Source: Lepus europaeus (lineage: Eukaryota > Chordata > Mammalia > Lagomorpha > Leporidae). Taken from it: DNA of 64,000 bases. Made by a program: the position numbers and the translations under genes. The number at the start of each line of letters is the position of its first letter. Position 1 is the stretch's first letter. Below are positions 33,762-64,000 of the stretch, one piece after another. The notes beneath the pieces are model-generated. The model had not been told where the DNA came from, searched no databases, and saw only the letters and a list, made by a program, of their open reading frames with translations. Location of the stretch: NCBI RefSeq assembly GCF_033115175.1, contig NC_084850.1, positions 15,097,218 through 15,161,217 on the forward strand, written 5' to 3'.

Positions 33762-34115
33762 TTTTAACTGTATCAGCAGTTAGTTCTCACATTGACTGTA
33801 GGTTTTTGAAAGTGGTGACGGGTATATACATAACCAAAGTAAAAAGCTTGTTTGGTGAATCTTCATCCTCATCACCTCGTCTGGACAACCTTACATGGAT
33901 ATGGTATGGGACATTCCTTATTCCTTTGGCCCAGATAACTTTGTTGAGCCTGGTATCAATGCTTTCATCTGGAGTCCCCATGTCCTTCATGGCAAATTTC
34001 CGGATCTCTCTGAGTACCTGAGAGGCACCCTTCTGGAAGTACATACCATTGATGTGCTTGTGAATGTTGATGGGGTACTCTTGGGTCACCACTTTGCTGA
34101 CCCTTCTGAGTTTCA
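33762..34115 (-). pseudogene. RPL31P: RPL31 processed pseudogene
   Basis: The minus strand encodes a recognisable ribosomal protein L31 (eL31), 60S subunit. Blocks seen are [43 protein letters not shown] and PVTTFKNLQ. There are no introns. The first 15-20 codons are missing or scrambled. Several conserved basic residues are changed, and a 4-bp deletion near the end shifts the frame into an early TGA (33787-33785). A second small deletion precedes the original TAA region. It is a dead retrocopy, open for 121 codons only by chance. The poly(A) tail has decayed. Confidence 0.9.
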
Positions 34116-60164: not shown

Positions 60165-60470
60165 TGATGTACCTTTAAACAAAATCTAGAAGCTCATTCT
60201 GAATTCCAGGTCTTGCATTTTAAAACAGATATCACCAAAAAGATATAACCCTAGAAAAACAAACTTTCTAAATTCCTAAGAAGAAGGTGCATCCCTGGGC
60301 CACCAGGGACATTCTTATTTAACGTTATTGTACCCTTAAATAAAACCCAGAAGTTCATTCTACTTGGTCTTCTTCACCAAAAAGATGTAACCTCAGTAAA
60401 AGGAACTTTTTACATTTCTATGAAAAAGCAGCACCACTGGGCCACTAAGGGACACAATCTTAGGCTCTCA
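60165..60470. repeat. Diverged tandem duplication, about 158-bp unit
   Basis: Two adjacent blocks (about 60165-60318 and 60326-60470) share the same order of words: GTACC-TTAAA, AGAAG-TCATTCT, CACCAAAAAGAT-TAACC, and CTGGGCCAC. The period is about 158 bp with roughly one in four positions changed. I do not recognise the unit as a known element. Confidence 0.65.
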
Positions 60471-60814
60471 AGTATTGTTTTTTTCCTAAAAAGTGCAGTG
60501 AATTAATTCAGTACCAAGTATTACCAGTCCAACCATCATAATCACCAAAATCATTCACTATTTTTCAAATTATGAAAATCACAGCCTAGTAAATGTTACG
60601 TGCAAAATTTCTTCGAGAAATCAGGTGCATGGTAGAGTGGAGTAAAAATGGAAAACTCCAGATTTCACAAAGATGTCAAGTTTTACATTTCGGTGCAATG
60701 TAACTGAATTGGCAAAGACCATTAGAACCAGCAACCAAAACCGAAAGGATAAATTTTCCTATCACCAAGTAAACACCCACTCTGCCCTTCCCATTTAGGA
60801 ATTTAAAATAAGAT
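60471..60814. other. Unassigned sequence, possibly HAPSTR 3'UTR or flank
   Basis: AT-rich; no gene or repeat seen. Lies downstream of the HAPSTR retrogene on its strand. Confidence 0.4.
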
Positions 60815-60905
60815 CACATTTATTCATTCAACAAACATTTATTGAACACCAGCAAGTGTGCTAGGTGCTAATGTAACTTAACAAGGCTCCCGCCCTGACT
60901 GAATA
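60815..60905 (-). mobile_element. L2 3' end carrying two AATAAA signals downstream of HAPSTR
   Basis: The plus strand reads TTATTCATTCAACAAAC..TTATTGAACACC..GTGCTAGGTGCT, the reverse of the L2 terminal consensus, so the LINE2 piece runs with the HAPSTR gene strand. It supplies AATAAA on the minus strand at 60819-60824 and 60838-60843, about 315-335 nt past the HAPSTR stop. It could act as polyadenylation signals. Whether it came with the retrocopied 3'UTR or was already in the target is unknown. Confidence 0.6.
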
Positions 60906-61156
60906 CTTTTGCTGTAAGTGACCTTGTTAACTACTACATGACATCTGAGGTTCTCTGCTACAATTATACTTTTTGGGAAGTCAGAGTCATATGAGGCCTC
61001 TTCTGAAATACTTTTAAAGTTTCTTTACGGCAAACTTGATAGAAATCTTTGTTTAACTTAAGGAAGAAAGATGATCTCCGGCACCCTGCGGACAAGCGTG
61101 CTGAAGGTCGACTTAGCGCTCAGGCAATGTGGTGGTTGGTGACCAGTGACGCAGTT
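60906..61156 (-). other. Probable HAPSTR 3'UTR
   Basis: The sequence directly after the TAA up to the L2-derived AATAAA. GC-rich for the first 75 bp (61080-61156), then AT-rich. Called 3'UTR from position only; no transcript data. Confidence 0.45.
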
Positions 61157-61978
61157 TTAGACCATTCGGTTGCGCTTGTAGGTTGGGGAGTCTGTGATGC
61201 CATCACCGCAACGGGCTGAGGTGCGCTTGCGGGTCCCCCCACTGTCCAGGTGTTGGGCAACTTCTTCTGGGTTGAGGTCGTCCTCAAAGAAGCTACTTCT
61301 TCGGCGGCCACTGCTGGCGACACCACTCTCTTGAGATGGGGAGCCAGGCGCGCCAGACCGCATGCTGATTCCCGCCATCGCGCCGCTGAGGCAATGTAAG
61401 GCTATAGCCTCGTGGAAAGGCTGTAGGTCGACGTCCACTGATGAGCTGGATTCGGTGGCCGCAGCCTGGCCAGCGGCCCCAGTATGCGGCTTCGGGGATG
61501 TCCTGGGAGGGCGTGGCGGGGCAGGGGCGGGGGGAGCTTTGCCACAGAGAAAGCTAATCAGATCTTCACGGCGAATAGTGCTTCGGCCCTTTTTCACCCA
61601 CTCCAACACATCTCTGATGCGACGCTGGTAGCCAACCTGGACACCTAGCTCAAAACTTCGTCGGTGGGCATTCCCGCTCTCTTTGTACAGGCTGGTCACG
61701 GCCATGGCCGCATGCTGGAAGGGGTCCCACACGGAGAGTCCTGGCTGTGGGCACCCAGAATCCTTGTAGAGCTGAGCCACAGCAGTGGCCGAAATCTGGA
61801 AGAGGTGCCACAGCTTCTGCTGCTCGCTCCTCAGCCCTGCCGCCTCGGCGGCCGCCTCCTCCTGCAGCTCGGGGAGCTGCTGCTCTTCCTGCTCGGCCTC
61901 GGCCAGGCACTGGCGCTCCCACTTAGACAACCAGGGCTCTGCGACCTCGGCCTCGCCCTCCTTCGGCTTCTCCTCCAT
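61157..61978 (-). CDS. HAPSTR2: HAPSTR-family retrogene, intact 273-aa ORF (HAPSTR2 candidate)
   Basis: The product resembles HAPSTR1 (C16orf72), a nuclear/cytosolic protein that binds the giant E3 ligase HUWE1 and tunes stress signalling. It has the acidic/Gln-Glu-rich N-terminus (about residues 1-55) and the conserved core LWHLFQ (57-61) and ATAVAQLYKD (64-73). A second AVTSLYKE-type helix follows (93-100), then VGYQRR (115-120) and TIRREDLISFLCGK (134-147). A divergent Pro/Ala linker (148-173) leads to LQPFHEAIALH (185-195) and a basic C-terminus (RKRTSA 250-255, KRNR 268-271). The length is close to the parent (about 275 aa). The whole frame is open in one exon although HAPSTR1 has introns, so this is a retrocopy. 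The start is fixed by an in-frame TGA three codons upstream (61985-61987) and a strong context (A at -3, G at +4). The stop is TAA at 61157-61159. The symbol is an inference: a lagomorph-specific second retrocopy is possible. Family membership is firm. Confidence 0.85.
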   Translation of the reverse strand: MEEKPKEGEAEVAEPWLSKWERQCLAEAEQEEQQLPELQEEAAAEAAGLRSEQQKLWHLFQISATAVAQLYKDSGCPQPGLSVWDPFQHAAMAVTSLYKESGNAHRRSFELGVQVGYQRRIRDVLEWVKKGRSTIRREDLISFLCGKAPPAPAPPRPPRTSPKPHTGAAGQAAATESSSSVDVDLQPFHEAIALHCLSGAMAGISMRSGAPGSPSQESGVASSGRRRSSFFEDDLNPEEVAQHLDSGGTRKRTSARCGDGITDSPTYKRNRMV

Positions 61979-61979
61979 C

Positions 61980-62060
61980 CTCCTTCACCTCCTCCACCTC
62001 CTCCACCTCCTCCACCTCCTCCACCGTCTCCACCTTCTCCACCTCCTCCTTCAGGCCGCG
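61980..62060 (-). repeat. 9-bp purine minisatellite in the HAPSTR 5' leader
   Basis: On the plus strand, units of CTCCTCCAC repeat about six times with slight variation; on the gene strand this reads GTGGAGGAG. The array ends only a few bases before the ATG and so should lie in the 5'UTR. The G-rich sense strand has closely spaced GG pairs that could fold into a G-quadruplex in the mRNA. The in-frame TGA at 61985-61987 interrupts the CDS frame, so the array is not an N-terminal extension. Confidence 0.8.
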
Positions 62061-62263
62061 CGCCTCCTCCACCGCCTCCTCCTCCGCCGCCTACTCTTGC
62101 TCTTCCACGTCCACCTCACCTCCTGCTCCGAGCTCCCCTCCACCTTCCGCGGCGGCCGCCGCCGCCTCCTCCGCGTGCGCTGGCGGGCGGGTAGGCAAGC
62201 GCGCGGGCGGCGGGGCCCTGAGGCCAACTGCTACGGCTCGCGCCGCCCGCGGCCCGGGAGTAC

Positions 62264-62371
62264 GCCCCGCCCCGCCCCGCCGGCCCGGCCCCCGGCAACG
62301 CCGCGGTCGCTGTCTCTGCTGCTGTAGAGATAACCCCGCAGCCGCTGGTGCCGCTGCGCTGCCCCTTCCGG
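62264..62371 (-). promoter_or_regulatory. GC boxes and ETS-type site upstream of the HAPSTR retrogene
   Basis: A run of CCCGCC units at about 62264-62281 gives overlapping Sp1-type GC boxes. CTTCCGG at 62365-62371 (CCGGAAG on the gene strand) is an ETS/GABP-type core. Both lie 290-395 bp upstream of the ATG inside the CpG island. There is no clear TATA box, so a dispersed CpG-island promoter is the best reading. Function is inferred from motif match alone. Confidence 0.4.
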
Positions 62372-62560
62372 CCCCGCGGTGTGCTCCTACGGCCCCCCCA
62401 TGGCGCCGCGGCCTCCCCGCAGCCTTAGTCACCACCGCCGCTGCCGCCAGGGCCCGCAGCCCGGCCCCAGCCCCCGCTCGCGCCGCGGCTGCCGCACTGA
62501 GAACTTGGAGGTGGGGGCTGGCTGGAGCGCTGCCTCAACGCGGCGCTTGCCTACCTCTTG

Positions 62561-64000
62561 GCCCCCTTTTCACACATTTTTGGGACTTGTCGGCTTCATC
62601 CAATGAGCTGATCAAATTTTACATCCTATGTTGCCAGAGAGGATTATGGGGCAACTTCATGGTGTCGATCACATCCAGGGCGCCGATCCGGGGAGGCCGG
62701 AGGGTAGAGTGGAAAGACCGCGGCCCTCATGAATAGCAGTCTGAACTCCAGAAATAGGTGCCTGAGGAAAGTGTTTTCCTCGGACTGAAAAAGTATTTTG
62801 ATAAGGAAAAAAAATCGTATCAGGGTATGCGCTCTCCCTTTTTCCGACCTCTGCTTCTTCGACTCAGTTTCCCCAAATGCCCGAGGAGGTTTCTGGACAG
62901 ATTTCTGGAAAACACTTTCAGTCGTGATATAGAACTTGCCTGCTTTCCCCGCAAAGCGCCTCTCGGGGCTGGTTGTATAGTTAACGAATTCTGGAAGTAA
63001 CGGTCAGAAATGATCTTCATTCTCCTACTACCCCCCCCTCCCCATTCTTGCAAAGGTTTTTATCATTAAAAAATGTGCTGGTGGGGGTTCTGTGTGGTCA
63101 ACTCTCAGTTACTGAAAATTCCAAGATGAAGGAAAAGAAAAAACAAAAAGAAAGCTCATACGCGAGATTCTCTGCTCTAGTATAAAATCCAATACCTTTT
63201 GGGGAAAAAAAAAGACAAAAAAGTTACCTGAATAACAGTACCCCTCAAAAACTGGTTACTTAAAGCATCATAATAATACCAAAATTAAGCCAAAGCAGCA
63301 TGGGATGCTACTGTCTGTTCTTTAAGTTCAATAACAAATCCTTTGAAAGATGCAAGCCTTTCTCAGTGTAGCCAGTTCCAGAGCAAACTGTGTTAAAAGA
63401 AGAAAAATTCACACTGACCTAAGAATAATATCAAAATGGTAGAAACTAACATGTAAGGAGTGGTTTAATTTCGGGGGAACATTTAGAATATTAGTCAAGT
63501 ATCCAGAAAGCCTTACAAAGATAAAGCCAAATCTTAAAGCAAAAATCTTTAAAAATTCCCAACAAAACTAGTGCATAAAGTAAAATTATCTAATAATTAA
63601 GCTTTATCATCTTCCTTAAAAGAAACACATGTTTCCAAGTTAAATTTAAAAGAGAAGAAGAAGAAGAAGAGGGGATTGTACCCTTTCTCTGCAAACGGGG
63701 CTTTTTCACGATTCATTAAACCCTTTTTCCAAATGTGTAATTGGACTCTTCTCATTTACATAAACGAAGGATGAGGCAAAAGACTAAAGATCAGCCCAAA
63801 AGGAGAGATATGTTTCTCATTAACCTGTACTAAAAAATATTGTAGAAGGAAACTCCAAGAAAGCAGAGGCCCCCTTTCTCAACCCCTGTCTCACCACTAG
63901 ACCTGAAATACTTCATGGCCAAGGAATTAGCCTATTTGCCAAAGCTGTGAGGGTTGCCCTGCACATGATGCCTCACCGTTTTTTTTTTTTTTAAATCATA
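62561..64000. other. Flank upstream of the HAPSTR island
   Basis: CpG content falls gradually to about 63000, then the sequence is AT-rich. No gene or C repeat seen. A short (AAG)n is at 63652-63671 and a T12 run at the window end. Confidence 0.45.

Follow-up and report, generated by a model that had tools for sequence, protein, structure and literature searches.

HAPSTR1 (C16orf72, TAPR1) has been proposed to enable nuclear HUWE1 activity (PMC10921065, in its available part). Its X-linked retrogene HAPSTR2 is known as LOC389895 (ENSG00000230707) in human and as 'Predicted gene 715' in Mus spicilegus (P0033). According to the available portions of PMC9834230, HAPSTR2 is expressed in testis and neural tissue in human, with a similar pattern in mouse. 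In human cells, the same portions report, the protein binds HAPSTR1 and stabilises it independently of HUWE1; its own binding to HUWE1 is weaker than that of HAPSTR1, and upon loss of HAPSTR1 it can buffer stress signalling. Residues F90, AA93-94, LY100-101 and G119 of HAPSTR1 are called perfectly conserved there; in human HAPSTR2, G116 is required for the formation of oligomers, and residues 250-273 contain a nuclear signal (PMC9834230, available portions).

The genomic setting has also been described. The gene table of PMC11947168, as far as available, lists F9, MCF2, MIR505, ATP11C, CXorf66, LOC728660, HAPSTR2, SOX3 and LINC00632 for human Xq27.1. In a human comparison of the 1000 bases upstream of the HAPSTR2 start codon with the 5000 bases upstream of HAPSTR1, the promoters did not align, and the role of a proto-promoter was suggested for a CpG island close to the start site (PMC9834230, available portions). 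The available main text of the same paper contains no mention of 'lagomorph', and 'rabbit' occurs in it solely as an antibody.

Here we consider a gene in a window of 64,000 nucleotides of Lepus europaeus DNA (G000:C43:15097218-15161217, on contig C43 of 135,169,695 bases). It is almost certainly the lagomorph ortholog of HAPSTR2, the X-linked HAPSTR1 retrogene that was retroposed early in placentals; it appears to be held by purifying selection and would, with expression and binding taken by analogy, have a HAPSTR1-stabilising role. HAPSTR2 has been described since 2023, and public databases already give the rabbit protein this name; the window HAPSTR2 is therefore an ordinary, already known gene, and because of the existing database name it is less new than the first-pass annotation had implied.

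Identity and chromosomal setting

Six ATG frames in the window reach 120 codons or more, and the HAPSTR frame (Table 1) is the longest. An in-frame stop lies just upstream, separated by two codons from the ATG, which is therefore the likely start. The Pfam family TAPR1-like (PF15251) matches residues 21-271 of the protein with an E-value of 9.4e-88. The full-length, intact and intronless HAPSTR coding frame that the first-pass annotation had reported without a strand is thus present, on the minus strand. A further open frame of 160 codons (61712-62194, plus strand) runs antisense to the HAPSTR2 start; it is Pro- and Leu-rich and probably meaningless. A PDB sequence search with the window protein returned no HAPSTR structure and three matches to von Willebrand factor (E 0.48-0.66), and structure prediction from a 17-row alignment gave a mean pLDDT of 41.5 and no usable model. 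Rfam, at gathering thresholds, had zero matches in the window, and a scan of viral contigs for HAPSTR1 yielded no relative.

Table 1. Coordinates of the HAPSTR2 locus, of other features in the window, and of related copies elsewhere in the genome
Feature	Position	Strand	Basis or remarks
RPL31 processed copy	33790-34101	minus	104 open codons; 71% identical to an RPL31 query protein
HAPSTR1 3' UTR remnant	60484-61156	minus	blastn and local alignment to C24 copy
Segment of about 120 bases inside HAPSTR2 3' UTR	60796-60915	minus	not found in the C24, C18 and C8 copies
HAPSTR2 coding sequence	61157-61978	minus	single exon, 273 codons and stop; frame, Pfam, best match, tree, alignment
CpG-rich 5' flank	61979-62511	minus	aligns with presumed HAPSTR1 5' UTR in C24 retrocopy
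CpG island beside 5' end	62001-62750		CpG observed/expected 1.01, 0.93, 0.62 (three 250-base bins)
Processed HAPSTR1 copy L002	G000:C24:15553998-15557705		5' and 3' UTR sequence; TAG and frameshift near N-terminus
Processed HAPSTR1 copy L003	C18		stops and gaps; more diverged than C24
Processed HAPSTR1 copy L034	C8		fragmentary; more diverged than C24

The protein search found 413 relatives and listed 120 of them. The best match among those listed is P0001, the NCBI-named HAPSTR2 of Oryctolagus, which is 99% identical over its full length and differs in 2 of 273 residues (the window protein has R49 for K and H165 for L); so small a difference points to a leporid, whether through another allele or through a close relative of the rabbit. 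Second among the matches listed is P0002, the HAPSTR2 of Ochotona princeps, with 91% identity. As the best relative is an annotated protein of 99% identity, the match to the HAPSTR family is far beyond chance.

A maximum-likelihood tree was built from 51 rows, the window protein and 50 of the 120 matches listed, with a midpoint root for drawing only. The window protein, Oryctolagus and Ochotona are grouped with support 100/100, and this lagomorph group is nested in a HAPSTR2 clade of 36 rows (100/100) that includes primates, rodents, carnivores, ungulates, bats, Xenarthra and Afrotheria. A separate clade of 15 rows (100/100) contains named HAPSTR1/C16orf72 proteins of mammals and other vertebrates and includes the marsupial Gracilinanus. 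The window protein thus groups with placental HAPSTR2 and not with HAPSTR1. For comparisons with HAPSTR1 we used P0063, which has no gene name in the table and groups with the named mammalian HAPSTR1 proteins in the tree. Of 17 rows given a HAPSTR1 label on the basis of their names, two, P0072 of Miniopterus and P0106 of Tupaia, fall in the HAPSTR2 clade of this tree, and for these the label was rejected.

The chromosomal neighbourhood was assessed from the flanking genes. The SOXp family model has seven matches, the best of them at C43:14,759,953, where a single-exon frame of 490 residues, some of them unknown, matches SOX3. Among the 20 best proteins listed for this frame, 18 are named SOX-3 and 2 are without a gene name, with SOX-1 and SOX-2 ranking lower among the matches listed. 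Gla-domain matches number ten in the genome and three on C43, and for the Gla exon at C43:15,809,045 (a 35-residue query) factor IX occupies the eight best of 33 PDB rows. The order on the contig is SOX3 (14.760 Mb), HAPSTR2 (15.158 Mb) and the F9 Gla exon (15.809 Mb), so that HAPSTR2 lies about 398 kb from SOX3 and about 650 kb from F9. It is settled that this SOX3-HAPSTR2-F9 interval is syntenic with human Xq27.1, and from the location of the three genes we infer that C43 is the X chromosome. The first-pass annotation had suggested that the gene may be lagomorph HAPSTR2, and had proposed a protein search against HAPSTR1 and HAPSTR2 and a comparison with the human X. Both point the same way: the best match is rabbit HAPSTR2, the protein sits in the HAPSTR2 clade, and SOX3 and F9 flank the gene on one contig, as in human.

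HAPSTR1 retrocopies and constraint on the open frame

Besides the X copy, the best-scoring candidates of the genome searches include three HAPSTR1-derived retrocopies, on C24, C18 and C8. Measured in the 3' UTR, divergence from the C24 copy is 0.17 substitutions per site for C18 and 0.21 for C8, and 0.35 and 0.42 for the two pieces of the X copy. A SINE-like insertion is present further downstream of the C24 copy (L021, 5317-5666). A search of the genome with HAPSTR1 protein returned the retrocopies and weak matches, and no intron-bearing gene. Absence of HAPSTR1 from the genome was nevertheless rejected, since a 3' UTR stretch on C27 is 97% identical to the C24 copy over 522 bases and adjoins unreadable bases. 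From this likeness we infer that the C27 stretch probably belongs to the parent HAPSTR1, with the coding exon outside readable sequence.

How long a frame of this kind would stay open by chance was estimated by neutral simulation of the window's own frame, with substitutions only and 4000 runs per level. The frame was open in 1428 runs at 0.03 substitutions per site, in 781 at 0.05, in 161 at 0.10, in 11 at 0.20 and in a single run at 0.35. In the light of these counts, it is no surprise that the C24 copy (about 0.03) is broken, and it is a surprise that the X copy is open. The genome thus provides an internal control, in that three of the four HAPSTR1 retrocopies found are damaged and the one left intact, between SOX3 and F9, is the most diverged. 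The first-pass annotation had argued that a neutral copy of this age should be broken, as is the RPL31 copy in the same window. The comparison with RPL31 is weak, given the 104 codons that are open there. The RPL31 copy has no in-frame start codon that we could see and an apparent frame change at its C-terminal end; it looks damaged only at its ends, and less broken than had been implied.

A gene without introns, in a genome that holds independent HAPSTR1 retrocopies, could in principle be one more of them: a lagomorph-specific processed copy, independent of HAPSTR2 and open by chance. This explanation conflicts with the position in the placental HAPSTR2 clade, with the SOX3-F9 synteny and with the simulated counts at 0.20 and 0.35 substitutions per site, and it can for practical purposes be set aside in favour of orthology with HAPSTR2.

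Constraint on the ortholog was gauged against the C24 copy, a HAPSTR1-derived pseudogene that stands in for the parent, over the 230 codons that are in frame, with the beginning of the frame excluded. With this stand-in, dN/dS is 0.14 (bootstrap 0.07-0.22), with dN of 0.22 and dS of 1.57, the latter near saturation and unmeasurable in 23 of 1000 bootstraps. The ratio is thus below 0.5, and not near 1, the value that the first-pass annotation had named as evidence against its reading. As dN amounts to 0.53-0.63 of the 3' UTR divergence (0.35-0.42), that is, about half to two thirds of it, the HAPSTR2 branch by itself may be less constrained than the ratio of 0.14 suggests.

In the protein, F87, A90, A91, L97, Y98 and G116, which match the HAPSTR1 residues listed above, are invariant in 17 of 17 rows of the alignment. 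The window protein thus keeps the residues of oligomerisation and HUWE1 binding, and also, as sequence, the C-terminal nuclear localisation signal (250-273) with its RKR and KRNR blocks, so that the conserved core motifs and basic C-terminus of the earlier description are found again. Identity to P0063 is 68% overall, 77% in the core (53-147), 36% in the linker (148-173), 48% in residues 209-248 and 84% in the C-terminus (249-273). Divergence is therefore high in the linker and the core is kept, as had been noted, but that description is incomplete, because residues 209-248 are also fast. All three lagomorph rows, and none of the other 14, have N89H and G196C; the non-lagomorph rows have N (13 rows) or S (1 row) at position 89 and G (14 rows) at position 196. 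Three residues before E238 are missing in the same three of 17 rows. Function could be altered by N89H, which adjoins the invariant AA90-91, and by G196C.

It has therefore to be considered whether HAPSTR2 might be non-functional or relaxed in lagomorphs, with a frame that has survived by chance. The lagomorph stem branch (0.12) is the longest inner branch in the HAPSTR2 clade, and the lagomorph-only changes at N89 and G196 and the fast evolution of the linker and of 209-248 would fit such a history. However, the frame is full-length in the window, in Oryctolagus and in Ochotona, and the window and pika proteins are 98% identical in the core (53-147) and 73% in the linker. The observed identity of 91-93% needs only about 0.03-0.05 neutral substitutions per site, and the distance between rabbit and pika is far above this range. 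Loss or relaxation in lagomorphs is thus very unlikely, and a constrained HAPSTR2 ortholog is the preferred reading.

Untranslated flanks and the CpG island

For a constrained HAPSTR2 ortholog, HAPSTR1 mRNA would have been reverse-transcribed with its untranslated sequence and inserted between SOX3 and F9 early in placental evolution, and the insertion would then have been kept by purifying selection. On the 3' side, the two pieces of the HAPSTR1 3' UTR remnant are 68% and 72% identical to the C24 copy in aligned columns, and homology extends at least to 60484. In the 60796-60915 segment, which we take to resemble an old mammalian-wide repeat, the hexamer AATAAA occurs twice on the gene strand, at 60838-60843 and at 60819-60824. 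Among the A-runs listed, none was assignable as a poly(A) remnant that would mark where the retrocopy ends, and no target-site duplication was assigned either. An A-rich stretch near 60440 was not counted as such a remnant, because it aligned inside the HAPSTR1 3' UTR.

On the 5' side, the CpG island lies in a window with an overall CpG observed/expected ratio of 0.21. When the 533 bases ahead of the HAPSTR2 start codon are compared with the 353 GC-rich bases that precede the ATG in the C24 copy, a segment whose 5' limit was set by eye, they align with a local score of 581. This score was reached by 0 of 300 dinucleotide shuffles (maximum 540), 0 of 2000 order-1 Markov sequences (maximum 549) and 2 of 2000 order-2 sequences (maximum 595). 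Control scores were 399 for the wrong strand, 467 for the reversed sequence and, across 25 windows taken at the SOX3 locus, at most 434. On 900 bases, the margin was narrower: the score was 586, and 200 local shuffles reached at most 559. The HAPSTR2 flank and the presumed C24 5' UTR also have an exact 20-mer in common (maximum of 17 in 300 shuffles), and GC-rich repeats yield shifted matches as well. The alignment begins at the point where both sequences become GC-rich; this may be the mRNA start, or merely the edge of like composition.

Judged from this alignment, the CpG island may have arrived, at least partly, as HAPSTR1 5' UTR within the mRNA. That an inherited 5' UTR, and not a chance proto-promoter, gave rise to the CpG island and perhaps to the promoter, while the old repeat in the 3' UTR may supply the polyadenylation signal, is possible, with the balance somewhat against it. 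The published human result counts against it, as do the single genome and the use of a pseudogene in place of the parent. This hint is, tentatively, the sole possibly new point of the analysis. If true, the published explanation for the first expression of HAPSTR2 would need revision.

Comparison with known HAPSTR proteins

The conserved residues suggest a nuclear protein that would form oligomers through its central helical (HBO) domain. By analogy with human and mouse (PMC9834230, available portions), the window HAPSTR2 would join and stabilise HAPSTR1, thus supporting stress signalling, and it would be expressed mainly in the germline and in neural tissue. The findings support the persistence of an X-linked stress-response retrogene, intact and constrained, in lagomorphs, in which the rabbit and pika proteins are already named in databases.

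The known HAPSTR2 and the window gene have in common the single exon, the F9-SOX3 interval and the full-length HAPSTR frame, together with G116, AA90-91, LY97-98, the basic C-terminal signal and a CpG island near the 5' end. Unlike known HAPSTR2, the lagomorph proteins lack the three residues before E238 and carry histidine and cysteine at positions 89 and 196. There is also a difference upstream, in that the 5' flank in the window aligns with a presumed HAPSTR1 5' UTR, whereas for the upstream kilobase of human HAPSTR2 no alignment with sequence upstream of HAPSTR1 is reported (PMC9834230, available portions). With the parent, HAPSTR1, the window gene shares the family, the domain plan and the C-terminal signal, at the 68% identity found for P0063. 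The parent gene has introns, whereas the window copy is without them, and its linker and residues 209-248 have diverged.
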